A DNA stretch of 64,000 nucleotides from Limnochordaceae bacterium (GTDB lineage: Bacteria > Bacillota > Limnochordia > Limnochordales > Geochordaceae). Each line of letters opens with the position of its first letter. Positions within the stretch are counted from its first letter, which is position 1. Made by a program: the position numbers and the translations under genes. Below, piece by piece: positions 36,134-58,785 of the stretch. The notes beneath the pieces were generated by a model, which was not told the DNA's origin, searched no databases, and saw only the letters and a list, made by a program, of their open reading frames with translations. The stretch covers positions 248,001 through 312,000 of the forward strand of contig JADBKR010000002.1 in NCBI GenBank assembly GCA_014896295.1. The letters are read 5' to 3'.

Positions 36134-36143
36134 CCCTGGCACC

Positions 36144-36159
36144 GGCCTCCCGACGGAGG
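36144..36159. terminator. Short hairpin between convergent eda and dehydrogenase genes
   Basis: Arms GGCCTCC / GGAGG around CGAC lie in the 30-bp convergent gap. It has no T tract; a weak bidirectional terminator is plausible. Confidence 0.3.
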
Positions 36160-36163
36160 GCCT

Positions 36164-39250: not shown

Positions 39251-39262
39251 CTTGAGAGAGCG

Positions 39263-40162: not shown

Positions 40163-40335
40163 ACGGCAGCACCCTGCACACGAGGCCGTGTCGAGCCTGC
40201 CCGAAGCCGAGAGAGTCGCACATGATCGCACAACCTCGCCCGGCCACCCGCCACGTCAACCCTCTTCCTGAAAATGCATAGCCAATGGAGCCGGCACGAG
40301 CAGGAGCAAGACCGAACCAAATCGAACATGTCCCC

Positions 40336-41138: not shown

Positions 41139-41203
41139 CCGCTCAGGGGCTCTTGCATGGGCACGGCCCGTACGCAGGGCACAGAAAGGTGGGGCCATGA
41201 CGT

Positions 41204-42316
41204 ATGCGCGCACATGAAGGGGTCACACGCCCGCTCATCGGGATCACGCTGGGCGATCCGGCCGGGATCGGGCCCGAGATCGTGCTCAAGGCGCTGGGCC
41301 ATCCCGAGGTGTTCACATGGTGCCGGCCGGTGGTCTACGGCCAGCGCCAGGCCCTGGAAAGGGCCGCTGCCTGGCTGCCCCGGTCTCCCCGGATCCACGC
41401 GGGAGCCGGCGCTCGGGAGGTCCTCGAGAGGGCAGATGCGGTGGGAGCAGACGCCGACGGGTTGGGGGTGGTCGCGCTCGTGGAGGTTGCCGGTGCGTTC
41501 CCGCCCGACGTGCCGGTGGGACAGGTCAGCGCAGCCGGGGGCAAGGCAGCGTTCGCCTACGTCGAGGCTGCCGTCCGGGACGCCATGGAGGGGACGCTCG
41601 ACGGCATCGTCACGGCTCCCATCCACAAAGAGGCGCTGCACGAGGCGGGAATCCCGTTCATCGGGCATACCGAGATGCTGGCCGGGCTCACGGGGAGTGC
41701 GGAGTCGTACACGATGTTCATGACCGGGCCCCTGCGCATCTTCTTCGTGACCCGGCACGTGTCGCTGCGCCAGGCGTGCGATCTCGTCACGACCGAGCGG
41801 GTGCTGGAGACGGCGCGAGCGGCGGACCGCTTCCTGCGCCGGTTGGGCATCGAGCGGCCCAGGCTCGCGGTGGCCGCGCTCAACCCCCACGCGAGCGACG
41901 GCGGCCTCATGGGTCACGAGGAGCAGCAGGCCATCATCCCGGCCGTGGAGGCGGCCCGACGGGAGGGGCTGCACGTGGAGGGGCCCGTGCCGGCCGACTC
42001 CGTTTTCCACCGGGCCATCCAGGGGCATTTCGATGCGGTGGTCTCGCTGTACCACGACCAGGGGCACATCGCCGCCAAGACCTACGACTTCGACCGAACG
42101 GTGAGCCTGACGCTCGGATTGCCGTTCTTGCGAACGTCGGTGGACCACGGCACGGCGCTGGACATCGCCGGCACGGGGAAAGCTCGAGAGATCAGCATGC
42201 TGGAGGCGATCCGCGTCGCCGCCCAATACGCCCGGCCGTGGAGGGCCGGCCAGGCACAGGGCCAGGCTGGTAGGGCTGCCCGGTCCTCCGGTGGGGTGTA
42301 CCGTCATGATCGATAA
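41204..42316 (+). CDS. pdxA2: PdxA2-type 4-phosphohydroxy-threonate dehydrogenase
   Basis: It has the PdxA fold, with GDPAGIGPEIVLKAL near residue 18, TAPIHKEALHEAGIPFIGHTEML and SLYHDQGHIAAK supplying the metal histidines, and TSVDHGTALDIAGTG. Beside a DUF1537 kinase, such proteins act as 4-phospho-D-threonate or -erythronate dehydrogenases giving dihydroxyacetone phosphate and CO2, rather than in vitamin B6 synthesis. 370 aa, with an extra Ala/Gly-rich tail after about residue 345. It overlaps the kinase gene by 11 nt. Confidence 0.88.
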   Translation: MRAHEGVTRPLIGITLGDPAGIGPEIVLKALGHPEVFTWCRPVVYGQRQALERAAAWLPRSPRIHAGAGAREVLERADAVGADADGLGVVALVEVAGAFPPDVPVGQVSAAGGKAAFAYVEAAVRDAMEGTLDGIVTAPIHKEALHEAGIPFIGHTEMLAGLTGSAESYTMFMTGPLRIFFVTRHVSLRQACDLVTTERVLETARAADRFLRRLGIERPRLAVAALNPHASDGGLMGHEEQQAIIPAVEAARREGLHVEGPVPADSVFHRAIQGHFDAVVSLYHDQGHIAAKTYDFDRTVSLTLGLPFLRTSVDHGTALDIAGTGKAREISMLEAIRVAAQYARPWRAGQAQGQAGRAARSSGGVYRHDR

Positions 42317-43733
42317 CGGTTCCCGTCCGCACCACCATCACCGGGACGCAAGCGGCGGCTTGCCTCCCTTCGGGGTCGTGGTCGCCGACGACCTGACGGG
42401 GGCCAACGCGACGGGCGTGCTCCTGGCGCGGCAGGGCCTGCGTGCGCTGTCGGTGATTGACCCGGGCCCCGAAGCCCTGCGGTGGGCCATGGACTGGATC
42501 GACCGGGGCCCGAGGCCGGGCGTGCTCCTCTTCAACACCGCGTCCCGCTCGATCGAGCCCGCGGTCGCCGCCGCTCGAGTGCGCCGGACCCTGGCGCCGG
42601 TCATCGAGCACCGCACCCCGGTCCCGATCGTCGCCAAACGCATCGACAGCACCGCCCGCGGCAACCTCGGCGCCGAAGTGGCCGCCGCCCTGGACGTGCT
42701 CGGGCCCGAGAGCTTCGCCGTGGTGACGGCCGCCTACCCGGCCTCGGGGCGCACGGTGGTGGGAGGGTACCTGCTGGTGGAGGGCACGCCGGTCACCCGC
42801 ACGGGCGCGGCCCACGACCCGCTGGCTCCCGTGCGCTGTTCCCACCTGCCCACGCTCCTGCAGCACCAGCAGCCCGGCGAGGTGGCGCACGTACCCCTGG
42901 GCAAGGTCATGGAGGGTGCCAGGGCCGTCGGCTCGGCCATCGTCGACGCTTTGTCGGCGGGGCAGCGTACCATCGTCGCGGATGCCGTCTCCGACGAAGA
43001 CATCGGCGTGCTGGCCGACGCCACGGTGCACGTGGTGACCCAGCTGCACCTCCGTGCCGTTTGCGCGGACCCCGGCCCATTGACCGCAGCGGCATTGGCG
43101 CGGCTTCTTCCGGTCACTGCTCCATCGGAGACACCCCGAGCCGTGGGCGAGGTCGCCGCCGCCCTCGAGCCACGCGCCCCCTCGAGCCCGGTCCTGGTGG
43201 TGGCTGGCAGCACGACGGAGCTCACCCGCCGCCAGCTCGCACGCCTGGAGCGAGAGTTGGGCGTATCGCTCGTGGTGGCGGATGCCGCGCTGCTCTCCTG
43301 TGACGTGACTAGCAAGCGTTCTCAAGAAATCCAGAGGCTGGCCCGGCATCTGGCGGAGGGCGGCCACCATCCCGTCCGAGGCATCCGCACCATCGGGGAC
43401 GATGCGCACGCACTCCTTCAACTACCCCCGCGCCAGCAGGCGAGGCTTCTAGAAGCGGTCGGAGAGGCGGTCCGGCAGGCGACAGAAGCGATCGTACGGC
43501 GAGAGGGACGGCCACCCGCGGGTCTTTACCTGAGCGGCGGGGACGTGACGGCGGCGGTCGTGCGTGCGCTGGGCGCCGTCGCCATCGAGCTCGTCGATCA
43601 GGTGTTGCCTCTGGCGGCCCTGGGGCGGCTCGCGGGTGGACCGTTTTCCGGAGTGCGGGTGGTGAGCAAAGGTGGTCTCGTAGGAGGTGAGGATGCGGCC
43701 GTTTCGTGCGTCCAAAGATTGATGTCACCATAG
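42306..43733 (+). CDS. Four-carbon acid sugar kinase (DUF1537 family)
   Basis: The N-terminal domain has VVADDLTGANATGVLL, FNTASRSI and the KRIDSTARGNLGAEV substrate block. The C-terminal nucleotide-binding domain has LYLSGGDVTAAVVRALG and VVSKGGLVGGEDA. Family members (DtnK, LtnK, DenK types) phosphorylate threonate, erythronate or 3-oxo-tetronate. The PdxA2 partner favours D-threonate or D-erythronate kinase. ATG 42306 has GGTGGGG 9 nt upstream. Confidence 0.88.
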   Translation: MIDNGSRPHHHHRDASGGLPPFGVVVADDLTGANATGVLLARQGLRALSVIDPGPEALRWAMDWIDRGPRPGVLLFNTASRSIEPAVAAARVRRTLAPVIEHRTPVPIVAKRIDSTARGNLGAEVAAALDVLGPESFAVVTAAYPASGRTVVGGYLLVEGTPVTRTGAAHDPLAPVRCSHLPTLLQHQQPGEVAHVPLGKVMEGARAVGSAIVDALSAGQRTIVADAVSDEDIGVLADATVHVVTQLHLRAVCADPGPLTAAALARLLPVTAPSETPRAVGEVAAALEPRAPSSPVLVVAGSTTELTRRQLARLERELGVSLVVADAALLSCDVTSKRSQEIQRLARHLAEGGHHPVRGIRTIGDDAHALLQLPPRQQARLLEAVGEAVRQATEAIVRREGRPPAGLYLSGGDVTAAVVRALGAVAIELVDQVLPLAALGRLAGGPFSGVRVVSKGGLVGGEDAAVSCVQRLMSP

Positions 43734-43770
43734 ATGCGCCTGTTGAGGGCAGGAAAGGACGGAGAGTCCT

Positions 43771-45165
43771 ATGCAGACTCCGCCGGTAGCAGGCTGGCAG
43801 CTGATCGCTGCGCTGATCGTGGGAGTCGCCGTTCTCGTCTATCTCATTTTGAAGACGCGGGTTCACGCGTTCCTCGCCCTGATCCTGGCCTCCGCCCTCA
43901 CCGGCCTGTTGGCGGGGATGGATCCCGTGGCGGTCGGCAAGTCCATCACGAACGGGTTTGGCAACACCCTCGGGAGCATCGGCATCGTCATCGGCTTCGG
44001 CGTCATGATGGGCCGCCTGCTCGAGGTATCCGGCGCCGCCCAGCGCATGGCGCAGACGTTCCTGCGCTGGTTCGGCAGAGGCCGTGAGGACGCGGCCATG
44101 GCGGCGACCGGGTACGTGGTTTCCATCCCCATCTTCTGCGACTCGGGCTTCGTCATCCTCTCCCCTCTGGCCAAGGCACTCTCCCGGCGCACCGGCCGGT
44201 CGGTGATTACCATCGGGGTGGCGCTGGCGGTCGGCCTGGTCGCCACGCACCACGCGGTGCCGCCGACGCCGGGCCCCCTGGCGGTGGCGGGGATCTTCAA
44301 CGTCGACGTGGGCCAGATGATTCTGGCAGGGCTGCTGTTCGCCATCCCGGTGACCGTGGCCGGCGTCTTCTACGCCCGGTGGTGGGGCCGGCGCCTCTAT
44401 CAGATCCCGGACGCGACGGGGCTCGGGTGGCAGCGGGTACCCGCAGAGGCCGCAGCCCAGGCAGCTGCTGCAACGGAAGCGGCCGTCGAGGCGGAGCAGG
44501 AGCAGCAGCTGCCCGGCACGGCGGTCTCGTTTGCCCCCATCGTGGTACCCGTCGTCTTGATCCTCCTCAATACCGTGTTGACGGCTATGAAGGCCACGGG
44601 TAGCTGGGCCACGGCGATCATCTTCCTCGGTAACCCGGTCATCGCCGTGGGCATCGGCTTGCTGATCGCTCTCTGGAGTCTCCTGCCCGGCGTGTCCCGC
44701 AAGGACGTGCTGCGCTACATGGAGGAGGGCGTGAGCTCAGCCGGCATCATCATCCTGGTGACGGGCGCGGGCGGGGCGCTGGGCCAGGTGCTGCGAGACA
44801 GCGGCGTCGGAAACTACCTTGCGAGCTCCATCGCGACGACGGGTATCCCGGCCGTGTTGCTGCCCTTCCTGGTGGCGACGCTCGTGCGGTTGGCCCAGGG
44901 CAGTGGCACCGTGGCCATGATCACGTCGGCCTCCATCACGGCGCCCATCCTCGCCAACCTCCACGTACCGCCGGTGCTCGCGGCCCAGGCCGCGGCGCTG
45001 GGCGCGATGGTCTTCTCGTACTTCAACGATAGCTATTTCTGGGTCGTCAACCGGCTGCTCGGCGTGGAGGATGTGAAAGAGCAGGTCATGACGTGGTCGG
45101 TGCCGACCACGATCGGGTGGGGAGTCTCCCTGATCACCCTGCTCATCGTGTCCGCCGTCTGGTAG
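43771..45165 (+). CDS. GntP-family gluconate/sugar-acid permease
   Basis: This 464-aa multi-helix symporter of the GntP family shows IPIFCDSGFVILSPLAKAL, THHAVPPTPGPLAVAGIF, GAGGALGQVLRDSGVG and QGSGTVAMITSASI; a hydrophilic Glu/Ala-rich loop lies near residues 225-250. It probably imports the C4 sugar acid processed by the kinase and PdxA2. It follows the kinase by 37 nt and ends the operon. Confidence 0.9.
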   Translation: MQTPPVAGWQLIAALIVGVAVLVYLILKTRVHAFLALILASALTGLLAGMDPVAVGKSITNGFGNTLGSIGIVIGFGVMMGRLLEVSGAAQRMAQTFLRWFGRGREDAAMAATGYVVSIPIFCDSGFVILSPLAKALSRRTGRSVITIGVALAVGLVATHHAVPPTPGPLAVAGIFNVDVGQMILAGLLFAIPVTVAGVFYARWWGRRLYQIPDATGLGWQRVPAEAAAQAAAATEAAVEAEQEQQLPGTAVSFAPIVVPVVLILLNTVLTAMKATGSWATAIIFLGNPVIAVGIGLLIALWSLLPGVSRKDVLRYMEEGVSSAGIIILVTGAGGALGQVLRDSGVGNYLASSIATTGIPAVLLPFLVATLVRLAQGSGTVAMITSASITAPILANLHVPPVLAAQAAALGAMVFSYFNDSYFWVVNRLLGVEDVKEQVMTWSVPTTIGWGVSLITLLIVSAVW

Positions 45166-45262: not shown

Positions 45263-46018
45263 CTACACTCCCATGAGGCTGGACATCTGGCGGCGGACCT
45301 GCTCCACCCCGGCCCGCTCATCGCCCTGCCCCTCGAACTCGATGGAGAGATACCCTTGGAAGCCTGCCCGCCGCAGCTCTTCGGCGACGGCCTGCCACGG
45401 GACCTCGTCGCCTCCCTTGACGTGGGCGTGCACCGCCAGGCCGGCGAGGAGCCGTACCGCCTGGAGCGGATCCTCGTGGGCGAGGACGAAGTTGGAGGGG
45501 TCGAGGTTGAGCCGTAGCGCCGGAGAGTTGACCGAACGCACGATGTCGAGCAGCTGTTCGCTGCGCCCGGCCAGCTTCCCGTGGTTCTCCAGGGCCAGCA
45601 CGACCCCCGCCTGCCGGGCGTAGCCGGCGCACTCCCTCAAGCCCTCGATCACCCAGCCCCGGGCATCCTCCCACCGCACGTCCGGCTTGAGATCGCCGGA
45701 AAAGACCCGGACCACCGGCGCCGCCAACCGTACCGCGGTATCCACGGCCCGCCGCACCCGCTGGACTTGCTCCGCCCGGCGCGCCGCATCTGGCCAGGCG
45801 AAGTCGTTGGTAGCATCGTAGGCGGCCACGACGAGCCCCGTCTGGTCGACGAGCGCCCGGATCTCCGGCACCTCCCGGGGCTCGTCCTTCCAGAACACGT
45901 CCAACAGCTCCACCGCACCAAACCCGGCGCCCTGGGCCCAGCGCACGAACCCGGCCACGTCGAGGCGACCAGCGTACGCCTCCCGGTGCAGCGACCACAT
46001 GCTCACCGCGCTCTTCAT
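45263..46018 (-). CDS. TIM-barrel sugar phosphate isomerase/epimerase
   Basis: This 251-aa AP-endonuclease-2-type barrel, like IolE/IolI or hydroxypyruvate isomerase relatives, has LLDVFWKDEP, VVRVFSGDLKP, LALENHGKL, RLNLDPSNF, VHAHVKGGD and LSIEFEG; the Glu, Asp, His and Glu metal residues lie in the last four blocks. ATG 46018 overlaps the Gfo/Idh stop (ATGA). As the last gene of the saccharide operon it probably handles a keto-sugar released by the upstream enzymes; the substrate is unknown. Confidence 0.85.
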   Translation of the reverse strand: MKSAVSMWSLHREAYAGRLDVAGFVRWAQGAGFGAVELLDVFWKDEPREVPEIRALVDQTGLVVAAYDATNDFAWPDAARRAEQVQRVRRAVDTAVRLAAPVVRVFSGDLKPDVRWEDARGWVIEGLRECAGYARQAGVVLALENHGKLAGRSEQLLDIVRSVNSPALRLNLDPSNFVLAHEDPLQAVRLLAGLAVHAHVKGGDEVPWQAVAEELRRAGFQGYLSIEFEGQGDERAGVEQVRRQMSSLMGV

Positions 46019-47037
46019 ACGGCCACCCTCTTTCCGGTGCGATCCGACGCGTAAGCGGCCAGTACGACCTTCAACGCCTCCCTGCCCGCGACCCCGTCGG
46101 GCTCCGGCGTCAGCCCTTCCCGGACGCAGCGGGCGAAGTACCGGTGCTCCTCGGCGAAAGGATCCCCTGCTTGCAGGCCCGGCTGGAGCCATCCCGTGAG
46201 GCCTTGCCATGCCGCGCCCGGCACGAACAGCCGCACGGGAGTGCGATAGTCCACCACGATGCTCCCGTCCGTGCCATACAACTCGTAACCCATCACGCCT
46301 TCATGCGTCGACCATCCCACCTCGATGGTGCCGATCGCCCCGTCTTGCAGGCGCAGGGCCAGATGCGCCACACGGTCGACTTCGCCTCCCGGCTCCACCG
46401 TCGCGAGCACGGCGCTCACGTCGCCGACCTCCGAGCCGCTCAGCCACCGTACCAGGTCCACTGCGTGGATGCCCATGTCGAGCAAGGCACCGCCGCCCGC
46501 CCGATCCGCCCGCAAGAACCAGTCGCTCTCGGCCGGCCACGCGACGTACGGCCCCCGGTGGGCGAACCGAACGCGAAAGCTCAGGATGCGCCCGATCGCC
46601 CCCTCCCGCACCAGCCGGTGCACTTCCTGGTTGAACGCATAGAACCGGTGGGTAAACCCGACCATGAGCACGCGCCGGCTCGAACGGGCGGCCGCCACCA
46701 TCGCGTCGGCATCTTCCGCCGTCAGGGCCATCGGCTTTTCGACCAGGACGTGCTTCCCCGCCTCGAGCGCCAGGAGCGCCTGCCGGGCATGAAGGTGGTT
46801 GGGCGTGCAGACCACCACCGCCTCGATCTCCGGGCGAGCCTCCAGCATCTCCTCCAGCGAGCCGTACGCCGCCGGCACTCCGAACTCCTGCGCGACCGCT
46901 TCTGCTCTCTGCCGCTCGACGTCCGCCACTGCGGCCACTTCGGCGGCACCCGAACGCTTCACGGCCGCCAGGTGCGCCCTGCGAGCGATCGCTCCCGTGC
47001 CTACCACACCGAGTCGCACCAGATCTGTCGTCGCCAT
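46015..47037 (-). CDS. Gfo/Idh/MocA-family oxidoreductase
   Basis: The 340-aa protein has an N-terminal NAD(P)-binding domain (LGVVGTGAIARRAHL; CTPNHLHARQALLALEAGKHVLVEKPMAL) and the C-terminal alpha/beta domain with GGGALLDMGIHAVDLVRWL. These enzymes oxidise or epimerise sugars and inositols via keto intermediates. Paired with the TIM-barrel isomerase it forms a common sugar-oxidation module. ATG 47037 has GGAGG nearby. Confidence 0.92.
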   Translation of the reverse strand: MATTDLVRLGVVGTGAIARRAHLAAVKRSGAAEVAAVADVERQRAEAVAQEFGVPAAYGSLEEMLEARPEIEAVVVCTPNHLHARQALLALEAGKHVLVEKPMALTAEDADAMVAAARSSRRVLMVGFTHRFYAFNQEVHRLVREGAIGRILSFRVRFAHRGPYVAWPAESDWFLRADRAGGGALLDMGIHAVDLVRWLSGSEVGDVSAVLATVEPGGEVDRVAHLALRLQDGAIGTIEVGWSTHEGVMGYELYGTDGSIVVDYRTPVRLFVPGAAWQGLTGWLQPGLQAGDPFAEEHRYFARCVREGLTPEPDGVAGREALKVVLAAYASDRTGKRVAV

Positions 47038-47057: not shown

Positions 47058-48096
47058 TCACCGTGACTGCAGCCACCGGGCGTATGCCCGGTACAGCGCC
47101 ACCGAGCTCGGGTGGCCCGCCGTGGCCGGGCTGTCCGGCGGGTTCATCAGGCCAAGGTACTGGTAAGCGAGGATCCGGTCGACATAGCGGGACGCCGCGG
47201 TGAGCTGGGCGAGGATGCGCTCCCACGGCGCGGGCACCAGAGGGCTGCGGTATACCGGCCCCTCGAACCGGAAGAGTTCGACGTCGGCCCAAAGCGGCAG
47301 CCGTGCCCGGTCATGCAGCCTGCGCAGGCGCGCCCAGATGGCATCCAGTTCGTCGACCCGTGTCTTCTCGACTCCCACCTCGTCCTGGTAAGCGATGTAA
47401 TCCACTTCGAGCGCTCGCAGCTGTTCGACGAAACGCCGGTCGTCCGCCACCGTACGGGTGCCGTAAGGGGCAATGAGGACCGGCTTGCCGGGAGCCGCCT
47501 GCCGGCAACCGTTCCGCCATGGCTCGCGCGTAGAGGACGTACGCCTCCGGGAAGTGGCCCTGGATGGGAGCCTCGACCGGCAGGTACCATCCGGAGAACC
47601 CCCGGTGATGCCCGTACCGGCGGGCAAGCTCCAGGGGGACGTGCTGGCGGCCCAACTGTTCGCGAGGATCCTGCGAGGCAAAGTCGCCGGTATGCTCGCT
47701 GAAAAAGCCAACCCCGAGGAATACCCCAGCGCCGCTTTCATCCGCCGCTCGCAACACGGCCTCGATGGGGTCGGCGCAGGCCAGGGGCGTCCAGCGCTTG
47801 CGCATGACCTCGGAGGGGTAGAAGGCCTCGCCCCGCAGGGCCACCGACGTTACCACGAGGATGCGCATGCCGACGGCCGCCATCTCGTTCACCTTGGCCT
47901 GCCACTGCTCGCAGCTGAACAGAGCGGTCTGGCCGTTCCAATAGTCGCCGTCGTGAGGATTGGGATGGTGGAAGTCCAGCCAGCTGCCTTCGATCGCCCT
48001 GATTTCGTTCATGGGTTTCGCCCCCGTGACCGCAGGGAGGATGGCCATGCCCGCCGCCAACTGCATGAGGCGGCGCCGGCTCAGCGCCAATGGCAT
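47058..48096 (-). CDS. DUF4434-like secreted protein, apparent frameshift
   Basis: This TIM-barrel glycosidase-like protein has a Tat-type signal (SRRRLMQLAAGMAILPAV, residues 6-23). The first frame gives EGSWLDFHHPNPHDGDYW, RILVVTSVALRGEAFYPS, GVFLGVGFFS and HRGFSGWYLPVEAP. At about 47500, at TTGCCGG after the RAMAERL codons, the frame breaks. The expected continuation KPVLIAPYGTR ... DYIAYQDEVGVEKTR ... PLWADVELF ... AYQYLGLMNPPDS is in the next frame, ending at 47058. A single surplus base explains it. The ATG shares bases with the stop of the 1482-aa gene (TGATG). Family naming is from pattern memory and moderate. Confidence 0.65.
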
Positions 48097-51000
48097 CAAG
48101 GTGCCTCCCCCGCCGGAGCCAAGGGACCGGGACCTGCCTCGAAGTACCCCGAGACGCAGTACGCCGACAACCTGCGGCGCCACTGCGGCAGCTGGTGCCC
48201 GGCAGCGACCAGGAACATGCAACCCGCCCGGACTTCGTCGACCTCCAACGGCTCGCCGGTCGCCGGCATCTTCTCCAGCTCGACCCACTGCCCGTCGCGG
48301 AAGGTGCCAACCACCACGGTATCACCCGCGCCCGGCCACCGCCATACCGTGCCCGTCGTGAAGGGCAAAGCGAGCACCGCCTCGCTGCGGCTCAGGTCCT
48401 GCCCGTCCAGCGCGACGAGGGCCAGGTGGGCGCTCGCTTCCACGAGCGGCCGTCCTCGCCACGTCACGGTACCCTGGGACTCCACGTGAGTCAGCTCTCC
48501 CCTGCTCGTGACGAAGACGAGCCCCGGCCGTCTTCGCTCGAGGTGCAGGCGGACGGCCTGCCCCTCCCCGGGGCGCACCTCGACCTCCCGGGAACCGGAC
48601 CGGTGGAAGAGCACCCACAGTCGGCCGCCCTCGGCTGCAGGCGTCATCACGTGCAGGTCGGGTTCCTGGGGACTCACGGGCGGCTCGCCATCGACGCAGG
48701 CCCCGACGACGGCCCTGTACAGCTCGAAGAGCACGGGGCTCGACCGCCAGCCCGGCCAGCGGGCCTCGGTCGGGTCCGCGTTGTAGATCACCGTGCCGTC
48801 CCCGGCGGGCCGGCGGGTCACCACGGGGAAGCCCCCCTCGCCTGCGACCAGCGCCCGCGCGCCGGCAAGCTCGAGGTGCACGCAGGGCCGCCACGTGTCC
48901 TCCACGGCAGTGCCGGGGATAAGGGCACGAACGGCCGGCCCCGCCTCCCACTGCATGGGCGGGTACAGCCGGCGCACCAGCCGGGCGCCGATCAGGTCCT
49001 CCCATACGCTCTCGCGCCGCGGCTTGCGGTCCTCGTCGTACGACGGGTCGCCCGAGAGATAGACCGTACCTCCCCGACGGGCAAAGTGCCGCAGCCATTC
49101 CAGCGCCGTCGCGGGTGCCCCGTAGGCCACCGGATAGAGCACGACCCGTGGCTCGAAGGGCAGCGTGGCCAGATCCTCTTCGTCGACGGCCTGGAAGTCA
49201 CAACCGAGGCTACTGAGCGCCATGCCCGCGGCGTACACCGCATTGACGGCTTTGATGCCGCCCGGCCCCATCCGGTTTTCCGAGGGCACCACCAGTACCA
49301 CTCGGGGCGCCCGGTATGCCAGCGGCAGCGTGGCGAACAGCAGCGCCACGTTGCGCACCTCGGCTGCGATAGGCTTGGGGACAGGATCGTGGCTGTGAAA
49401 GACTCCCCACGGGAAGACCCATCCCGTCGAGTCCTGCAGTCCCCAGTGCTGGAGTTTGGAGGCCCCCCGCCCAAGCCCGTAATGCTGAACAGCCAGGAAG
49501 TGCTCCAGCTGCTCCTCCCGGGTACGCCGCACGAGGTAGTTGGCGCCCCATGCCTGGCTCGGGTGGGTCTTGCACCCGTACTCACCGAGGCCGGTGCCCT
49601 GCCCGCGGATGCGCCGGTCGATGAACGTGAAAGCGCCCGGAAGCAGATCGACGTCCAGGTCCTGGTCGCCCAGGGCGTTACCGTTGGCATGGGTGAGGCC
49701 GTCGATCGCCTGGCGCAGGTCGTTGGCTCCGAAGGGCAGGTTGAAGAACTCGTCGGTGGTGATGCGCCCGGGCGTGACGGAGCTGACCGCGTCCACCATA
49801 CTGCGGTTCCATAGGCGCCCCAGCTCGACCACGAACCGCACGCGGTCCCGGAGGCGGACATCGTCCCATGGGGCCAGAGGGTTCCAGACCGGGTCGGGCC
49901 CGTCCGGCAGGGCCTGGGACCATCCGCGGGACGGGTCGTAGGCTGGGCCCCAGGCTTCCTGCAGCCGGTCCAGGAGACCGTAGCGGCGCCTCAGGTACTC
50001 CTCCCATAGGCCCTGGAAGGCGGTCAGGGGGTGAAGCTCACTTCCCAGGTCGCCGTTGAAATAGAAGATGAGACCCGGCACGTCCCTCCAGTGAGCGGCC
50101 ATCCTGCGGCAGAACTCCTGCTGTGCTTCCCGTTCGGCCCCCTGCGCCAGCACGTTGGTGAGCACCAACAGGCAGGGCATATAAATCATCCGGAGTTGCT
50201 GCAGTTCCTGCACCAGGGCGTCCAGGCTCCGCTGCTGGCGCTCGGGGAACTGAAAGCCGCCGGGGATGTACTGCAGGTTTTCGTAAACCCGGTATCCGTA
50301 GTCCCGGGCCCTCAACAGCAGCCGGCGGCGCCGGGCCGGGTGGTGGAACGCCCCGAAGAAGATCTCTTCGTTGCTGTCCGAGCCCATGAGCACGACCCGG
50401 CGGCCGTCCAGCTCGAAGTAGTTGTCGCGAAACTGAAGCCGGGGGCCACACTCGAGCGCCTGCTGCGACTCGACCAGGATGCTGCTCTCCATGACGTCCC
50501 ATGGCTCATCCGGGTCGCCCGCTCTCAGGTCCGCGGACATTCCTTCCGGGGAGTACCGCAGGCAGGACCGAATCGTGCGCAGGGTGCCCTTCCCCTCGGC
50601 CCACGGGATGGCAAACGTGACCTTGCGGGTGGCGCGAGCGGGCACGGCCACCTGCTGCTGCCCCTTCCACAAGATCGTCCCGGCTCCGTCGAGACACCAC
50701 ACGACGAGGCTTCCCGCCCGTGATTTGCCCGAGGTGTTGTGGACGATGACGTCCACCAGCGCATCTTCGCCCCGGCGGGCCAGGTAGTGGTGCGGCCGTA
50801 CCTCCTGCAAGAACAGCCCCTCGGCCAGGAAGGCGGCGACCCGGCACAGCCCCGGAAGCCGCCGTTCGTCCAGGAGATCGATGTTTTCGGTACCGAACGC
50901 GGCCCAGGCGGAGTGGGTGTACGGCCCTGCGCGATGGATCACCAAAGCCGCGGCGGGTCCCCGCTCCTGACCGTACCGGTCGGACGCCTCCAGCAGCGGC

Positions 51001-52544
51001 TCCCACCGCGCGTCGTCGACCCGGGTCAGCCCGGTGGCGGCCCACCCCCGTACGCCGTCGGGTGGAGCAATCGTCCAGCCGGCGGCGTCGAGCAGGTGCA
51101 GGCTCCCTGCGGGCCGCACCGTCACGGCATGCTCCAGCCGGAAGTCCGCGTCGAACAAGCCGAGCTGGGTCGGCTTCAGAAGGATGCCGTCGGAAGGTAG
51201 TCCCCACCGGCCGTTGAGGAGCCCAGGGTCGGGTATGGGCACGATCCCGTAGCGCCGGAGTACATAGGCCCCCTCCACCATCTTGAGTCCGAAACGCAGC
51301 CGGGTACGGGCCTGCCGGTAGTGGGTCTTGAACGGCATCCGGAAGACCTGGAGTCCGCCGGCGCGCTCGAGCAACCGGGCTTCGAACCGGAAGAGGACCT
51401 CCCCTGAGGCATCCAGCTGTTCGATGGTGACCACCGGCTGCCAGAAGTAGTCGAGGCCCTCTCCCCTGCCCTCCACCACCAGCACGTACCACGAGCCGGC
51501 CTCCAGTTCGTAGAGGGCTTCGGCTTGCGGAACCGCCTGCAGGAAGCTGCCGAACGGATGCGCCTTCAGGAGGTACCCCTGCGCCTCTCCGTCACGCCGG
51601 GTCGGCAGGCTCTCCACCGTCGACTCGAGGGGAGCAACCACCGGCGCGCCGTCGAGCTCGACCTGCGGGGGGTAAGGCTGTTCCACCCATCCTTCCGCCT
51701 CCCGGCGCCAGATGCGGTCGAAGGCGTAGCCACCCAGGGTCATGAGTTTCCCTCCAGCCGCCAGAAAGCGCAGGAGGGCCGCCCGCGCGTGGGCGGGGTA
51801 GTGCGGCCCGTGGGTCCAGATCAGGAGCGAGACCCCAGCACCGGTGAGCGCATCCGGTCTCTCCAGGGCCGCCGCATTCCACGAGGCGACCTGCCATCCC
51901 CACGCCTTCAGGCGCGCGAGCAAGGCAAAGACCCGGCTCTCCTGAGGAGCGCCCGGGAACGACGGGTCGTAGAAGATGGCCACCGCACGGTCATCCAGAA
52001 GTGGGGGCCAGGACGAGACGGCGTCGAGACCTGCACCCCGGGCCCGGAGCGAAAACGCCTTCACCCAAAACCGGCCGGTGCCGTTGTAAATCCCGATGCG
52101 GAGTTCGAAAAACCACGCCTTCGGGTTGCGGGGAAGTTGCTGCTCGACCTGCTGCCACCCGCCGGGTTCCCGGAGTACCAGGACGGTCGCCTCGTCGACC
52201 GGATCGCCGGAGAGGTCGAGCTGCGCCAGCCGGACATACAGGTGCCCCGGCGCCCGAGTGAGGTGGGCGACGTTGCCTCTTCCCGTGTACGGATGGAGAC
52301 TGTCCAGCCGCACATGGCCCCGGAGCTCCAGGCGCTCGCAGCCCTCAGGGATGAAGCCCCACTGGGTGGCGGCCCCGGCGTGCTCGCTCTCGCCGTTCAT
52401 TTGTTTCTGCGTGGGGTCGGCACCCAGGCTCATCAACCCGGGACCGCCTCCGGGCACCTCCGGCACGTACTCGCAGTTCTCCCCGAGCGACCAGCCGTGA
52501 TGCTCCGTGAAAGCCCCATTGCGCAACAGTTCCACGACGTTCAC
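48096..52544 (-). CDS. Very large (1482 aa) glycosidase-like multidomain protein
   Basis: I do not recognise a single named family. An N-terminal beta-rich, carbohydrate-binding-like part (about 1-170) is followed by a GATase/ThuA-like domain (about 184-275: VAIFYDPSFPG ... VSLLIWTHGPHYP ... GGKLMTLGGYAFD), more beta-rich sequence, and a TIM-barrel region (about 690-1020: ELDGRRVVLMGSDSNEE, YENLQYIPGGFQFPE, GLIFYFNGDLGSE, TTDEFFNLPFG). Then comes a beta-galactosidase-trimerisation-like GATase fold (RVVLVVPSENRM ... RRGGTVYLSGDPSYDED) and a beta-rich C-terminus. This resembles GH42/GHA-clan architecture. There is no signal peptide. The GTG start overlaps the 970-aa gene (GTGA), so the two are probably translated together. 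Confidence 0.7.
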   Translation of the reverse strand: MNVVELLRNGAFTEHHGWSLGENCEYVPEVPGGGPGLMSLGADPTQKQMNGESEHAGAATQWGFIPEGCERLELRGHVRLDSLHPYTGRGNVAHLTRAPGHLYVRLAQLDLSGDPVDEATVLVLREPGGWQQVEQQLPRNPKAWFFELRIGIYNGTGRFWVKAFSLRARGAGLDAVSSWPPLLDDRAVAIFYDPSFPGAPQESRVFALLARLKAWGWQVASWNAAALERPDALTGAGVSLLIWTHGPHYPAHARAALLRFLAAGGKLMTLGGYAFDRIWRREAEGWVEQPYPPQVELDGAPVVAPLESTVESLPTRRDGEAQGYLLKAHPFGSFLQAVPQAEALYELEAGSWYVLVVEGRGEGLDYFWQPVVTIEQLDASGEVLFRFEARLLERAGGLQVFRMPFKTHYRQARTRLRFGLKMVEGAYVLRRYGIVPIPDPGLLNGRWGLPSDGILLKPTQLGLFDADFRLEHAVTVRPAGSLHLLDAAGWTIAPPDGVRGWAATGLTRVDDARWEPLLEASDRYGQERGPAAALVIHRAGPYTHSAWAAFGTENIDLLDERRLPGLCRVAAFLAEGLFLQEVRPHHYLARRGEDALVDVIVHNTSGKSRAGSLVVWCLDGAGTILWKGQQQVAVPARATRKVTFAIPWAEGKGTLRTIRSCLRYSPEGMSADLRAGDPDEPWDVMESSILVESQQALECGPRLQFRDNYFELDGRRVVLMGSDSNEEIFFGAFHHPARRRRLLLRARDYGYRVYENLQYIPGGFQFPERQQRSLDALVQELQQLRMIYMPCLLVLTNVLAQGAEREAQQEFCRRMAAHWRDVPGLIFYFNGDLGSELHPLTAFQGLWEEYLRRRYGLLDRLQEAWGPAYDPSRGWSQALPDGPDPVWNPLAPWDDVRLRDRVRFVVELGRLWNRSMVDAVSSVTPGRITTDEFFNLPFGANDLRQAIDGLTHANGNALGDQDLDVDLLPGAFTFIDRRIRGQGTGLGEYGCKTHPSQAWGANYLVRRTREEQLEHFLAVQHYGLGRGASKLQHWGLQDSTGWVFPWGVFHSHDPVPKPIAAEVRNVALLFATLPLAYRAPRVVLVVPSENRMGPGGIKAVNAVYAAGMALSSLGCDFQAVDEEDLATLPFEPRVVLYPVAYGAPATALEWLRHFARRGGTVYLSGDPSYDEDRKPRRESVWEDLIGARLVRRLYPPMQWEAGPAVRALIPGTAVEDTWRPCVHLELAGARALVAGEGGFPVVTRRPAGDGTVIYNADPTEARWPGWRSSPVLFELYRAVVGACVDGEPPVSPQEPDLHVMTPAAEGGRLWVLFHRSGSREVEVRPGEGQAVRLHLERRRPGLVFVTSRGELTHVESQGTVTWRGRPLVEASAHLALVALDGQDLSRSEAVLALPFTTGTVWRWPGAGDTVVVGTFRDGQWVELEKMPATGEPLEVDEVRAGCMFLVAAGHQLPQWRRRLSAYCVSGYFEAGPGPLAPAGEAP

Positions 52545-55453
52545 CCCTCGATTGCCACGGGCTCGGCGGGCTCACCGGCATTGCCGTCGTCATCGACCGC
52601 CACGACCGAAAGGTGGCTCGGGACGAGACCGGTCCGGCGCTGTCTGAGCTGCTCCCACCACGACGTCAGGTCGCACGTGGTATCGTAAGTGGACGTCACG
52701 ACCTCGGCCCGAGGAGGGCGGACCTCCGGGCCCCATCCCGCCAGCACCAGGTAACGCACCCCGGTGAACGGCGCCCGTTCAGGGACACCACGGACCACGT
52801 GGTTCTCGACCGAATAGTGCAGCCCAAACGCTTCCGGGGGAGCATCCGGCCGGAGAGCCGGTGGCGGGGTACCCTCCGGAGGCTCCCACCGCAGGCGGAC
52901 ACCCTGGCCGTCACGTACGAGCTCCACGTGCCGGGGAGCAGGCACCGGGCCTCGCCGGGGGGAGCGATGGGCCACGCAGGCGGAGGGCGGGCCTTCGTCC
53001 CCACCGTCCCGGACGGCCGTCACCACGTAGAAGTACCACGTACCCGGTTGTGCGCTCCGATCGACGAAAGCCGGGCTCTCGGCTTCACCCAGCAGGTGAT
53101 CGGCTCGGGGCAACGCCGGGAACGTGCTGCTGCGGTACACCCGGTAGCCCGATGGCGGGGGCCCTTCCGGCGGCCTCCAGAAGAGCGCGATGCCATGGCC
53201 TTCCCCCTTCGCGGGGAGATCCTCCGTGAAGAGCACGGGCACGCGCCCTTCCGTGGCGGGGGTCGTGACCGTTTGCAGGGCGACCGCCCAGGGTGGCAGG
53301 GGACACGCACGCTCATCGAAGCGGGGCATCGCGTCGTCGCCCGCCAGGTACTGGGCAATCGCCCAGTCGATGACGGCATTGCACCAGCCCGACTCCATGA
53401 CGTACGGGCCCCACGCCGGGTCCTGCGGGCTTCCGTACCACTCCCAGTGGCGATAATCGAACGAGCGCTTCCACCCGCCGTCTACCAGGGGATCCTCCGG
53501 ATCCGCGATCTGGATGCGGACGAGGAAGTCCGCCATCTTCTCGAACAGTGCACGGGCCCGCCCGTCCCCCGTGGCCCTGTACAACTGCCACAGCCCGAAG
53601 AGGGCGAAACTCTGCACGTACATGATGTCGGCAATGGGCTCGCCGTTTTCGTGGAAGACCGCGGAGTCGGCCACGAAGAGGTCCTTGTCCTCGTTGTCCC
53701 ACTCCTGCAGCGCTCCTGTCTCGTCCGTGCGTCGCTCCAGGTATGCCATGCAATCCAGGGCCGCCTCGCGGGCCTTTACGGAAACCCCGCTCCACATGGC
53801 CAGGGGCAGGAGCGCCCGGGCATAGATCTCGGTACGGCTGACGTCGTAGCCGTAGCGGATGGGGTGGCTGGCGAGCATCAGCTCCAGCGCCCGCCACCCG
53901 TCTCGCAACAGCGAGCCGTCTCCCGTTGCCGCCCACGCATGGGGATAAAGGGCAACAGGCATGCCGTTGTAGTGGGGGACGACACTCGTCCCGGGAGACA
54001 GACGGCAGGGAACCGGCCCCACGGTGTTGAGCACGCTGCCGCGCAGGAAAAGGTAGTCGTGGCACCCAGCAGCGTTGAGCGTTTTCTGGAACGCGCGCAC
54101 GGTTTCGAGCGCCCGACCGAACGTCTCGTCGCCGGTTTCCCGCAGGAAGACCATGCCGACCAACGATGCCCACGTATTGTCGTCGGTGAAGATGTTTTCC
54201 GGATGCTGGCCCGGGGCGAGCTCCCCCATCCAGTTCCAGAAGCCGAACGTGCCGGCCCCTGCGTCCCGGTCCTGGTACCGCCCGTCGTAAAGGTGCTTCG
54301 CCAGGTTGCGGCCCACCCGCATCCAGGACTCGTCCCCAGAGGCCTTTCCGAAGGTCCAGCACGCGGCGGCGGTCTCGGCGATGCAGTCCGGGCGCAGATC
54401 CTTGCCAATGCTGCGGGTGTTGGATTCCACCCGTTCGTAAACGCCTCCCGTGCCGTCAGGTGTCACGAACAGGTTGCGGCGCAGCCACTCCAGGTTGCGA
54501 CCCACGCTCTGTCGGTAGCGCACCTGCCGGTCGGAAACGTCGAGGCGGTAGTGGATCTGCTCACCGTCGGCCCACGTGGCCCGGAGCTCGTAGACTCCCG
54601 GCTCCCGGAGCACCAGCGGCTCGCTTTCGAAAGCCCTGGCGCCGGCCGCCCGCAAGGGGATGAGCTCCCAGCTATTCCCCGCCGCTTCGGGGAGGATCCG
54701 GCGAAGCTGCACGCGATCCGGCGCGACGGCGGCCTCCACCCGCACCCGGGCCGGCTCACCGGGCGGCACCCACACCGGAGGGTCGGTCAGCAACCTGCGG
54801 TGTACCTCTTCGAAGCTGCGGCCGGATCCACCAAGAGCCTTGACCAGGTTGAAGGCGAGCCGCTCCCAACGTTCTCGCAATACGAAGCGGTCGTCACGGT
54901 ACCGGCTAAGCAGCAACGTCGCGTAGTAGACGCCGTCCCGCGGGCTGATCAGTGCCGGATGAGGATCCCCGACTCCCACGCGCCCGAAATGGACCCGATA
55001 GGTGCCCAGGACCTCTGCCAGCACCAGGAGTACCCCGGGGCGGCCGGCCAGCTCACCCTCGAGGAAAGGTGCACCGTACGGGTCGAGCAGGTCCATCGGC
55101 TCGAACCCGTCCGCCACCGGGCTCGACCCCTGCCAGACGACGAGGCGCCGCACCGACCGTTCGGCACGGGTGCCACGGGCGCGGAACCCTACCAGCTCGG
55201 CAAGGCGCTCGTGGGTCCACCCTTCGACGTACAGACGGCCCCCGGCCTCCACGTACCCCGCCACGGCGGCTGCCACGTCGTCCGGAAGGGTTGCTCCCAA
55301 CTGACTGGACAGCAGCAACAGGCCGTCGAAGCGCGCCAGAGCCCGGGCGGAGCGAAGCGTGTCCCTTTCTACCTCTTCCCACATGCCGCCCAGCCGGTCG
55401 ATCCACGTCCCGAAGGGAAAGGGCGCACCGTTGTGCCAGACGCCCAACCGCAC
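52541..55453 (-). CDS. Large (970 aa) six-hairpin glycosidase-like protein
   Basis: The N-terminus (about 1-230) is a GATase/ThuA-like domain (FDGLLLLSSQLGATLPDD ... YVEAGGRLYVEGWT). A central helical region (about 320-720) has the repeated helix pairs and aromatic motifs of (alpha/alpha)6 glycosidases or lyases: CIAETAAACWTFGKASGDE, FTDDNTWASLVGMVFLRETGD, SVVPHYNGMPVALYPHAWAATGD, QEWDNEDKDLFV and YVQSFALFGLWQLYRATGD. Two fibronectin-III-like segments follow (RPPEGPPPSGYRVYRS; LRWEPPEG). There is no signal peptide. GTG 55453 has GAGAGGGAGG 9 nt upstream. Substrate unknown; the operon context implies an imported oligosaccharide. Confidence 0.72.
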   Translation of the reverse strand: MRLGVWHNGAPFPFGTWIDRLGGMWEEVERDTLRSARALARFDGLLLLSSQLGATLPDDVAAAVAGYVEAGGRLYVEGWTHERLAELVGFRARGTRAERSVRRLVVWQGSSPVADGFEPMDLLDPYGAPFLEGELAGRPGVLLVLAEVLGTYRVHFGRVGVGDPHPALISPRDGVYYATLLLSRYRDDRFVLRERWERLAFNLVKALGGSGRSFEEVHRRLLTDPPVWVPPGEPARVRVEAAVAPDRVQLRRILPEAAGNSWELIPLRAAGARAFESEPLVLREPGVYELRATWADGEQIHYRLDVSDRQVRYRQSVGRNLEWLRRNLFVTPDGTGGVYERVESNTRSIGKDLRPDCIAETAAACWTFGKASGDESWMRVGRNLAKHLYDGRYQDRDAGAGTFGFWNWMGELAPGQHPENIFTDDNTWASLVGMVFLRETGDETFGRALETVRAFQKTLNAAGCHDYLFLRGSVLNTVGPVPCRLSPGTSVVPHYNGMPVALYPHAWAATGDGSLLRDGWRALELMLASHPIRYGYDVSRTEIYARALLPLAMWSGVSVKAREAALDCMAYLERRTDETGALQEWDNEDKDLFVADSAVFHENGEPIADIMYVQSFALFGLWQLYRATGDGRARALFEKMADFLVRIQIADPEDPLVDGGWKRSFDYRHWEWYGSPQDPAWGPYVMESGWCNAVIDWAIAQYLAGDDAMPRFDERACPLPPWAVALQTVTTPATEGRVPVLFTEDLPAKGEGHGIALFWRPPEGPPPSGYRVYRSSTFPALPRADHLLGEAESPAFVDRSAQPGTWYFYVVTAVRDGGDEGPPSACVAHRSPRRGPVPAPRHVELVRDGQGVRLRWEPPEGTPPPALRPDAPPEAFGLHYSVENHVVRGVPERAPFTGVRYLVLAGWGPEVRPPRAEVVTSTYDTTCDLTSWWEQLRQRRTGLVPSHLSVVAVDDDGNAGEPAEPVAIEG

Positions 55454-55487: not shown

Positions 55488-56363
55488 TTAGCCGCGCAGG
55501 CCGGTCAGCGCGATGCCTTCCACGAACGTGCGCTGGGTGAGGCCAAACACCACGATGAGGGGCAGCGAGATGAGCGCCGCAGTGGCCATGACCAGCGCCC
55601 ACTCGGAGTAATGCTGGCCGAAGAACATCTGGAGCCCCAGCTGCAGGGTGTACTGGCGCTCGTTCTGGAGGTAGATGAGGGGGCCCAGGAAGTCCGTCCA
55701 CGATGCAACGAACTGGAACAGGGCCACGGTCGCAAGCGCCGGACGGGTCAGAGGCACCACGATACTGCTGAAGATCCGGAGGTGATTGGCCCCGTCCACC
55801 ACAGCCGCTTCCGAGAGCTCGTTGGGAATGGTCATGTAAAACTGCCGGAGCAAGAAGACGTAAAAGGCCCCGGCAAAGAAGTGCGGCACGACCAGGGGCC
55901 GGAAGGTACCCACCCAGCCCAACGTCTTGAAGAGGACGAACAGGGGTACCATGGTGACCTGGTACGGCAGCATCATGGTGGCCAGCACGAGGACGAATAC
56001 GGCGTCACGCCCCGGCCACTGGATCTTCGAGAAACCGTAGGCCACCACGCTGCTGGAAAGGGTCACCGCCACTACGTTCATCACGGTGATGTACAGCGTG
56101 TTGCCCAGGTAGAGCATGAAGGGGAAGGCCTGGACCGCGTCCACGTAGTTGGCCCAGCGCGGGGTCTGGGGCAGGAGCGTCGGAGGCCACAGGAATATCT
56201 CCTTGTTGGTCTTCAGCGAGGTGGAGACAAGCCAGAAGAACGGGAACAAGAAGACAATGCCGAGCCCGCCGAGCAGCACGTAGTGACCCCACAATTGCAG
56301 TCGCCTGCGGTAATGCCATCCGGCCAGGCTCGCTACCGGCCGGGTCGTCGCCCTCACCGTCAT
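55488..56363 (-). CDS. Carbohydrate ABC permease, MalG/UgpE type
   Basis: This 291-aa inner-membrane permease has the EAA loop ELSEAAVVDGANHLRIFSSIVVPLTRPALATVALFQF expected of type I sugar importers, here with EAAVVDGA. It has six predicted helices. ATG 56363 overlaps the stop of the partner permease (ATGA). Confidence 0.93.
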   Translation of the reverse strand: MTVRATTRPVASLAGWHYRRRLQLWGHYVLLGGLGIVFLFPFFWLVSTSLKTNKEIFLWPPTLLPQTPRWANYVDAVQAFPFMLYLGNTLYITVMNVVAVTLSSSVVAYGFSKIQWPGRDAVFVLVLATMMLPYQVTMVPLFVLFKTLGWVGTFRPLVVPHFFAGAFYVFLLRQFYMTIPNELSEAAVVDGANHLRIFSSIVVPLTRPALATVALFQFVASWTDFLGPLIYLQNERQYTLQLGLQMFFGQHYSEWALVMATAALISLPLIVVFGLTQRTFVEGIALTGLRG

Positions 56364-57301
56364 ATGGGCCGCGCCCCCCCGTAGTGCACCCACCGGGACG
56401 AAGTCCGCAGGAGCACCAGCGTCGCCACCAGCAGGATGAGGAACAAGATCCAGGCCATCGCCGAGGCGAGCCCCATCTTGAAGAAACGGAAGGCGTTGAG
56501 GTAGAGGTAGAGCGCGTAGAACATCGTCGAGTTACGGGGTCCGCCCACCGCCAGCTGGCCACCGTAGCCCGTAGCGGAGAAAACGTACGCCTGGGTGAAG
56601 TACTGGAAGTACCCGATGATGTTGACCACGACGGTGAAGAAGAGTACCGGCGAGATCATCGGAAGGGTGATGGCCGTGGTCTTGCGCCACGAGGTCGCAC
56701 CGTCCAGCTCGGCCGCCTCGTACAGCTCCCTGGGTACCTCCTTGAGTGCCGCCAGGTAGATGACGACGGTGCCCCCGACTCCCCACATGCCCATGATGAT
56801 GAGGGCGGGCTTGGACCACGCCGGATCCACGAGCCATCCGGGTTCGGGAAGTCCCAGGAAGTTGAGGGCCGTGTTGAGGATACCGTAATTAGGATTGAAG
56901 ATCCACCGCCATAGCAACGTCGAGGCCACGATGGGGACGACCGTCGGCAGGTAGTAGAGCGCCCGGAAAAAGGCGATGCCCTTGAGGGGACGCGCCAGCA
57001 GGAATGCCAGGACGAGCGCCCACAGCAAGTGGACCGGCAGCCCGACCAGCACCATGTACACCGTGTTTTTCATGGACTCGTAAAACGTGGGGTCGGCGAA
57101 CAGGGTACTGAAGTTGGCCGCCCCCACCCATCGCGGCGGGTTCATGAGGTTGTAGTCCGTGAAGCTGTAATAGAGGGACGAAACCACCGGTACGAGGGTA
57201 AATGCGAGGAACCCGACCAGCCAGGGCGAGATGAAACCAAGGCCCCACCAAAGCTCTCCACGTCTCCGACGTTCCAAGCGACGCAACGCCATCGCCCCCA
57301 T
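56360..57301 (-). CDS. Carbohydrate ABC permease, MalF/UgpA type
   Basis: This 313-aa partner permease has the first helix GFISPWLVGFLAFTLVPVV, the EAA loop ELYEAAELDGATSWRKTTAITLPMISPVL, and YYLPTVVPIVASTLLWRWIF. The ATG at 57292 is an alternative start. It lies after a stable hairpin that separates it from the binding-protein gene. No ATPase gene is present in the operon. Confidence 0.93.
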   Translation of the reverse strand: MGAMALRRLERRRRGELWWGLGFISPWLVGFLAFTLVPVVSSLYYSFTDYNLMNPPRWVGAANFSTLFADPTFYESMKNTVYMVLVGLPVHLLWALVLAFLLARPLKGIAFFRALYYLPTVVPIVASTLLWRWIFNPNYGILNTALNFLGLPEPGWLVDPAWSKPALIIMGMWGVGGTVVIYLAALKEVPRELYEAAELDGATSWRKTTAITLPMISPVLFFTVVVNIIGYFQYFTQAYVFSATGYGGQLAVGGPRNSTMFYALYLYLNAFRFFKMGLASAMAWILFLILLVATLVLLRTSSRWVHYGGARPI

Positions 57302-57351: not shown

Positions 57352-58611
57352 CTACTTTTGCTGTGCCGCGAACTCCTTGAGGGCTTGTTCTGCGTCCCTT
57401 TCACCGGCGAGGATGCTGTCGATGACCGGGGTGAGCTTCTGTATGTACTCGTCGTTGCCCGGAAAGATCGGCGAGGTGAGGAACCGGCCCTCGCGGAGCA
57501 AGGGCAGGGCGTCCTTCAGGACCGGCATCTTCTCCAGGAACTCCGGACTCTCGTTGAGCGCCATCCGGGCCGAAGCGTTAGAGATGCCCAGCGCCAGAAG
57601 CCGGTTGCCGTCGCCTGCCGACAGCCACTTGATGAACTCCCAGGCCTCCTGAGGATGCTTGGAGCCCTTCGGAATGCCCCAGACCGACCCGCCCCAGTTG
57701 CCGAATCCGGGAGATCCGTCGACCCTGGGATACGGGAAACGCCCGTAATGGAAATCGGGAGCGTACCACTTGGTGAAGTTGACGATCCACTCGCCCCAGT
57801 TGTCCTGGATGGAGATCTTCCCGGAGAAGAAGGGGTTTTCGGGGCTGGCGTAGCTGCCCAGGGATTCCTGGAAGGCCCGAAGCGCCGGATACCCGTACTT
57901 GGCATAGAAGCTGCGCATCCAGCGAGCAGCCTGGATGACCTCCGGGGCATCGGGCGTAGGCACGCGACGCTTCGCGTCGTAGACACTCCCGTTGAACATG
58001 TAGGTACTCAGCACGATGTCCGAGGGGAGGTACCCGATCCGCTGGATCCGGCCGCGGCTCACCTGGTACAGCTTATGAGCCCACTCCTCGAGCTCGGCCG
58101 TGGTCTTGGGCGCCCGGTCGGGGAGACCCGCCTCCTTGAAGTGATCCTTGTTGTACGCAATCATCGAATAGTTGGCCACCACAGGCATCGCATACAGCTC
58201 GCCCTGGTAGTGCACCGCTTCCCAGACCGGTGCCACGTACTCCTCGCCCTTGATCCCGTCCTTTTTCGCGTACGAGGAGAGCGGGACCAGCGCACCCCGG
58301 CTAGCAAGATCTGCTACCTGCGTCCACCAGATGGCCGACACGACGTCCGGCGGCGTCCCCGCGGCGATGGAGGTGAGCAACTTGTCGTAGGCGCCGAAAA
58401 TCGTGACCGGCTCGACCACGATGTTGGGGTGCGTCTTGTTGAACTGTGCCACGACGTCCTCGACGACCTTCTTCTCGTCGCCGCCCCACCCATGCCAGTA
58501 GACGAGCTTGGTCGGTGCAGCCATCACCGAAGAGGCAACCCCCAGCAGGACCAGCGCCGCCACCACACCCCATGCTACCGCTTGCCCAACACTGGCTCGC
58601 CTCGCTCTCAT
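57352..58611 (-). CDS. Extracellular sugar-binding protein (family 1)
   Basis: This 419-aa ABC substrate-binding protein has a signal peptide (MRARRASVGQAVAWGVVAAL, cleavage near VMAA, residue 32). The mature sequence TKLVYWHGWGGDEKKVVEDVVAQFNKTHPNI is classic for family 1 solute-binding proteins, as are GTPPDVVSAIWW, YAMPVVANYSMIAYNKDHF and GNWGGSVWGIPKGSKHPQEAWEF. There is no lipobox cysteine. ATG 58611 is preceded by AAAGGAGG at 10 nt, one of the best ribosome sites in the window. It is the first gene of the saccharide operon. Confidence 0.93.
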   Translation of the reverse strand: MRARRASVGQAVAWGVVAALVLLGVASSVMAAPTKLVYWHGWGGDEKKVVEDVVAQFNKTHPNIVVEPVTIFGAYDKLLTSIAAGTPPDVVSAIWWTQVADLASRGALVPLSSYAKKDGIKGEEYVAPVWEAVHYQGELYAMPVVANYSMIAYNKDHFKEAGLPDRAPKTTAELEEWAHKLYQVSRGRIQRIGYLPSDIVLSTYMFNGSVYDAKRRVPTPDAPEVIQAARWMRSFYAKYGYPALRAFQESLGSYASPENPFFSGKISIQDNWGEWIVNFTKWYAPDFHYGRFPYPRVDGSPGFGNWGGSVWGIPKGSKHPQEAWEFIKWLSAGDGNRLLALGISNASARMALNESPEFLEKMPVLKDALPLLREGRFLTSPIFPGNDEYIQKLTPVIDSILAGERDAEQALKEFAAQQK

Positions 58612-58785
58612 CTGTGCGAACCTCCTTTCAGCAGTACGCAACCGGTACCCATGCCGGCAACGGAACGGCCTTTTCGCCGCCCGGTAACCGTATTCTCGGA
58701 TCAGTGGAGAACTCCTTCCCATCCGTGCAAAAACCGGAGATGTTCTTCACCGCCCCATCCGCACCGGCCATGACTGGCTGGGGTG

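Follow-up and report, generated by a model that had tools for sequence, protein, structure and literature searches.

P0001 and P0002, encoded by two overlapping genes in the 64,000-nucleotide stretch of DNA analysed here (the window), which comes from a Limnochordia-type bacterium, are best read as a pair of carbohydrate-cleaving enzymes that work in the cytoplasm and belong to a single operon for oligosaccharide catabolism; we give this reading a probability of about 0.6. Both are minus-strand open reading frames with a GTG start, P0001 at 52541..55453 (970 aa) and P0002 at 48096..52544 (1482 aa), and the stop of the first and the start of the second share the four nucleotides GTGA (52541..52544, read from the sequence), exactly as given in the initial annotation. 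The pair lies in a run of eight minus-strand genes, which extends beyond the two named there. As had been proposed, the pair sits behind a sugar importer, composed of an ABC solute-binding protein (57352..58722, SBP_bac_1) and two ABC sugar permeases (56360..57301 and 55488..56393), and a ribosome-binding stretch, GGAGAGGGAGG, is found upstream of P0001. P0002 is followed by genes for a DUF4434 protein with a twin-arginine-like N-terminus (47058..48096), a Gfo/Idh/MocA oxidoreductase (46015..47037, start read from the sequence) and an AP_endonuc_2 protein, a xylose-isomerase-like TIM barrel (45263..46018). The ATG of the DUF4434 gene and the stop of P0002 have one base in common (TGATG), and an ATGA overlap joins the Gfo/Idh and isomerase-like genes.

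In this assembly, the DUF4434 gene is broken across two frames (window positions 47058-48288, minus strand). It is one base longer here than in the species' single-contig genome, and the frame break is therefore peculiar to this strain or a mistake of the assembly. That the pair itself arose by misassembly is excluded by a second genome of the species, in which both P0001 and P0002 are present at 99% identity. Our literature search on DUF4434 returned no paper, and the available text of the Geochorda and Carboxydochorda paper (PMC11456536) names no enzyme like P0001 or P0002. A separate cluster on the plus strand (35477-45165) encodes a KDPG-type aldolase, a PfkB kinase, a DeoR-like regulator, PdxA, a DUF1537-type acid sugar kinase and a GntP permease, and its probable use is that of threonate/erythronate-type acid sugars. 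Upstream of the two GTG codons, 17 (P0001) and 9 (P0002) in-frame codons precede a stop, giving open frames of 987 and 1491 aa, and a strongly hydrophobic stretch was sought at both N-termini and found in neither. With upstream frames this short and N-termini of this kind, no signal peptide lies hidden upstream, in agreement with the initial annotation, and both proteins should therefore be cytoplasmic.

The AlphaFold model of full-length P0001 (pLDDT 82) divides the protein into a ThuA/GATase-like domain (residues 1-210), a beta-sandwich (215-306), an (alpha/alpha)6 barrel (307-706) and an FN3-like domain (about 740-830), followed by a tail of low model confidence (836-955 and 961-970). Pfam and NCBIfam searches returned no family naming P0001, and the one FN3 match stays below the Pfam cut-off (18.9 vs 25 bits); of the FN3 modules announced in the plural, one FN3-like domain is retained, the residues beyond it being the low-confidence ones. 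Modelled alone, the N-terminal domain and the beta-sandwich reach a pLDDT of 91.7. VIA-align relates residues 1-210 to the ThuA-like proteins 4jqs and 1t0b (Z 14.8-16.4, 16.4 for 4jqs), to the trimerisation domains of GH42 enzymes (Z 13.4-15.6, 15.6 for 5xb7) and to Op5Man5 (Z 13.7). The Pfam ThuA model (PF06283) run on the own genome of P0001 gave zero matches, so the ThuA-like assignment rests on the fold. Cysteine is absent from this domain of P0001, and the GATase/ThuA-like domains of the pair, being devoid of Cys, are not amidotransferases; by analogy with their counterpart in GH42 enzymes, they probably serve oligomerisation.

The six-hairpin region (residues 300-708; 53330..54556, minus strand) that had been recognized in P0001 corresponds to the modelled (alpha/alpha)6 barrel, with Z scores of about 30. 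Among the VIA-align matches listed, cellobiose 2-epimerase, GH88 and GH76 enzymes score between 29 and 31, with a Z of 30.9 for cellobiose 2-epimerase 7d5g (rmsd 3.5 over 343 residues), 30.0 for the GH88 unsaturated glucuronyl hydrolase 2fv0 (over 335 residues) and 29.4 for GH76 4v1s (321 residues, 2.9 A). Structure prediction and Foldseek, which the initial annotation had put forward as a check, thus yield for P0001 a carbohydrate-enzyme fold, while the structural ties of the model leave the choice among hydrolase, lyase and epimerase undecided. The Pfam GH88 model is matched weakly by 9 of 49 relatives, and not by P0001. In a tree of the barrels, the placement of P0001 has weak support (0.507), and we claim no origin from it.

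The barrel belongs to a large, widespread family that neither Pfam nor NCBIfam names: there are at least 590 pattern matches and at least 487 confirmed loci, with representatives in Bacilli, Actinobacteria, Bacteroidota, Lentisphaerae, Armatimonadota and archaea. Across 49 diverse members, 14 columns are invariant, to all of which P0001 conforms, and the family-invariant residues include, in P0001 numbering, E340, R354, D609, Y612, W661, R663, D678 and W681. An adjacent Asp pair is also largely kept (D424 in 45 and D425 in 44 of the 49 members). The family motif F.DDN that contains it aligns with the FNDD of the GH76 enzyme 4boj, in a weak match (E 0.0025), and according to PDB titles the residues inactivated in another GH76 enzyme are an adjacent Asp pair, D136 and D137. 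This alignment provides a lead, namely that D424 and D425 are probably the catalytic acids of P0001, at the mouth of the barrel.

By E-value, the top Foldseek matches of P0001 are different, namely 5no8 and 5nok (E 3e-10 and 7e-10), two structures of the PL27 L-rhamnose-alpha-1,4-D-glucuronate lyase BACCELL_00875. P0001 could then be a PL27-type lyase opening a uronic-acid linkage by beta-elimination, after which P0002 would remove the flanking sugar. The lyase likewise has a beta-sandwich ahead of its (alpha/alpha)6 barrel (PMC8377490), and P0001 possesses, among its conserved residues, H494, Y612 and several Arg. We nevertheless consider this unlikely, since TM-scores of 0.18-0.30, relative to the query, are low and come with an rmsd of 12-14 A, the profile match to BACCELL_00875 is scattered (E 0.00087 over the whole chain, with no single stretch significant) and the best VIA-align matches listed are epimerases, GH88 and GH76 enzymes.

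P0002, as judged by sequence and profile comparisons, consists of an N-terminal beta region, a GATase-like region (residues about 190-280), a beta-rich middle, a clan GH-A TIM barrel (about 700-1080), a GH42M-like domain (about 1110-1310) and a C-terminal beta region. The GATase/ThuA-like domain that had been attributed to both proteins is well modelled in P0001 (Z 16.4), whereas in the P0002 family its evidence consists of DUF4350 matches, weak ones, found in 2 of the 10 members. Searched alone against Pfam and NCBIfam, P0002 remains below every cut-off, including both Pfam GH42 ones (11.8 bits for the catalytic model, with a cut-off of 21), and thus neither protein receives a family name from these databases, as stated initially. 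The full-length relatives of P0002, obtained by searching genomes that hold long P0001 relatives, are more informative: family members match Pfam GH42, GH5 and GH42M, 6 of 10 relatives match Pfam GH42 at E<=0.01, and a ten-member family profile reaches the GH42 beta-galactosidases with an E of 4e-18 over both the TIM barrel and the trimerisation domain. The profile stretch 1120-1310, aligned to 5dfa, is the trimerisation (42M) domain that follows the barrel. These profile matches uphold the TIM barrel and trimerisation-like fold proposed for P0002, and make it a clan GH-A type between GH5 and GH42. The pair is outside the named families of Pfam and NCBIfam, yet inside known superfamilies, the (alpha/alpha)6 carbohydrate enzymes for P0001 and clan GH-A for P0002. 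Within these two libraries, then, the outcome that the initial annotation had named as a refutation, assignment of both proteins to characterised CAZy families, did not arise.

The P0002 family was found in 58 of 291 genomes of one Armatimonadota-type phylum, and a simple rule detects a signal-like N-terminus in 22 of 40 of its sequences. P0002 of the window, predicted to be cytoplasmic and located behind an importer, appears to differ from these exported Armatimonadota-type forms. In other genera of the window's class no P0002-like protein was found, one genome having a short local match only, and a search of plasmids and viral contigs returned nothing. As phrased, the initial proposal of two proteins without an obvious named family that may define a new degradation system is not sustained, the P0001 barrel family being very widespread and the P0002 family common in Armatimonadota-type genomes, often with export signals. 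What is borne out, as a prediction, is an intracellular, coupled and glycosidase-like pair, through the gene overlap, the N-termini and the fold and profile matches. In two genomes (at L203:9259-11500 and L190:5547-7772), genes for an MFS carrier and for a GHMP kinase resembling galactokinase come after a P0002 relative, neighbours from which galactose or a similar sugar might be guessed as product. A Lentisphaerae genome has two P0002-family paralogues close together (L128:8115-17612).

The most interesting part of P0002, absent from the initial annotation, is a fixed N-G-D motif. N830-G831-D832 (50049..50057, minus strand) replaces the NE of the clan GH-A acid/base site, a site that is, to our knowledge, close to universal in this clan. 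Among 39 sequences covering the motif, P0002 included, 31 have N-G-D, one has D-G-D and seven have N-E, and GE(F/Y)G is constant in all 39. In the profile alignment, D832 shares its column with the acid/base Glu of GH42 (SNEY). E988 (49581..49583, minus strand), the Glu that never varies in GE(F/Y)G, is the presumed nucleophile, as read from this GH5-like motif, with a putative position at the strand 7 end, and falls a few residues off the GH42 nucleophile, not exactly on it, in the HMMER alignment. In a tree, the seven N-E sequences are set apart from all others by a branch with a support of 1.0, and the NW..FPWG region is kept alongside the nucleophile motif in the NGD clade. The full-support split and the kept motifs speak for function and not for decay.

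With Asp where the acid/base Glu is expected, the chemistry could be changed or lost, and a literature search for an acid/base role of Asp in clan GH-A, the largest glycosidase group (PMC8447715), found nothing useful. Tentatively, P0002 might represent a clan GH-A family, so far unclassified, in which the NGD Asp is the acid/base or a classical acid/base is dispensed with; such a family would fit a substrate whose C2 group or leaving group is unusual. P0002 might then act with P0001, as an unclassified (alpha/alpha)6 glycosidase, on one imported glycan. The NGD clade, with its nucleophile motif kept, is a directly testable example of altered glycosidase chemistry. The loss of the canonical Glu could also mean that the clade has lost glycosidase activity and consists of binding or structural proteins, which seems rather improbable to us, because the replacement is one fixed motif in 31 sequences with the nucleophile motif and NW..FPWG kept, and not a scattered loss.

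Short relatives of P0001 are found amid glycan-catabolism genes. In Bacilli, their neighbours include NanE (19 loci), GH20C (13) and an amidohydrolase (12), and also GH3, GDSL and FAD_oxidored proteins (L016-L045 and L012); a 534-aa protein without a Pfam match (L043:11220-12821) is present in 16 loci. These neighbourhoods point to amino-sugar glycans in Bacilli. We did not extend the idea of an amino-sugar substrate to the window, the gene run of which has no NanE, GH20C, amidohydrolase or GH3 gene. A Bacteroides finegoldii locus (L013:4393-10260) encodes a DUF4434 protein, an AGE epimerase, a P0001-family protein, SusC/D-type proteins and an alpha-N-acetylglucosaminidase, and thus shows DUF4434 next to the P0001 family for a second time; being the only such locus among those fetched, it led us to reject DUF4434 as a general partner of this family. 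P0001 could itself be an epimerase of AGE type that converts the reducing-end sugar of the imported oligosaccharide ahead of cleavage by P0002. This is very unlikely despite cellobiose 2-epimerases and N-acylglucosamine 2-epimerases being among its closest folds, since in AGE-type epimerases the catalytic His pair lies near helices 8 and 12 whereas the sole strongly conserved His of the P0001 family, H494, lies before the sixth helix, and since the enzyme would be redundant in B. finegoldii, where a separate AGE gene adjoins the relative.

The pairing of the two families was examined in the Armatimonadota-type phylum to which a Zipacnadia genome belongs, with 291 genomes, in which P0001 relatives occur in 29 genomes, P0002 relatives in 58 and both in 18, where about 6 were expected (Fisher p 1.4e-7, a statistic that ignores the kinship of the genomes). 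In one of them, G587 (locus L190), the families are adjacent in the order and strand of the window, about 184 bases apart. This is the only genome outside the window's species with an adjacent pair among those examined, so that the gene-neighbourhood survey foreseen in the initial annotation recovered the arrangement once. P0002 was also sought beside 80 P0001-type loci of a genome-contig scan and nothing clear was found. The coupled pair itself is rare.

On the preferred reading, of two cytoplasmic enzymes in one catabolic operon, the exported DUF4434 protein would probably trim a sugar chain outside the cell, and the ABC importer would take the trimmed chain in. Inside, P0001 would cut as an (alpha/alpha)6 glycosidase type, with acids at the barrel mouth, probably D424/D425, and P0002 as a retaining glycosidase type of clan GH-A, with E988 as nucleophile and D832 at the acid/base place. 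The Gfo/Idh and isomerase-like proteins would then act on the released sugar by oxidation and isomerisation. The gene layout, the domains, the fold and profile relationships and the conservation of the named residues were observed, and it is from these that we infer the activity of both enzymes, the residue roles and the order of steps. As the P0001 barrel family is widespread and unnamed in Pfam and NCBIfam, a single assay on one of its members would annotate hundreds of genes.

Several known systems share part of this organization. The GH42 beta-galactosidases (Gan42B 5dfa/4oif; 4uni) have the TIM barrel and trimerisation domain that the P0002-family profile matches, but P0002 has NGD for NE at strand 4, a GH5-style GE(F/Y)G and large N-terminal additions. 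Precedents for its layout, in both of which a clan GH-A barrel of non-GH42 sequence is linked to a trimerisation domain of GH42 type, are Bs164 of GH164 (PMC7105311) and Op5Man5, a GH5 exo-beta-1,4-mannosidase with a GH42-type homotrimer and the Glu/Glu pair E156 and E281 (PMC8233224); unlike P0002, Op5Man5 thus uses Glu/Glu, is much smaller and is devoid of the further N-terminal regions. With the GH76 alpha-1,6-mannanases, P0001 has the (alpha/alpha)6 barrel in common, and F.DDN aligns with FNDD, but the sequence relationship is weak. The GH88 unsaturated glucuronyl hydrolase has the same type of barrel, whereas the Pfam match is lacking in P0001 itself. PL27 BACCELL_00875 combines beta-sandwich and (alpha/alpha)6 barrel as P0001 does, yet with a low TM-score, and P0001 adds the ThuA-like and FN3-like domains. 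Finally, residues 1-210 of P0001 resemble in fold the ThuA-like proteins 4jqs and 1t0b, but differ from ThuA proteins by their lack of Cys and by a genome free of Pfam ThuA matches.
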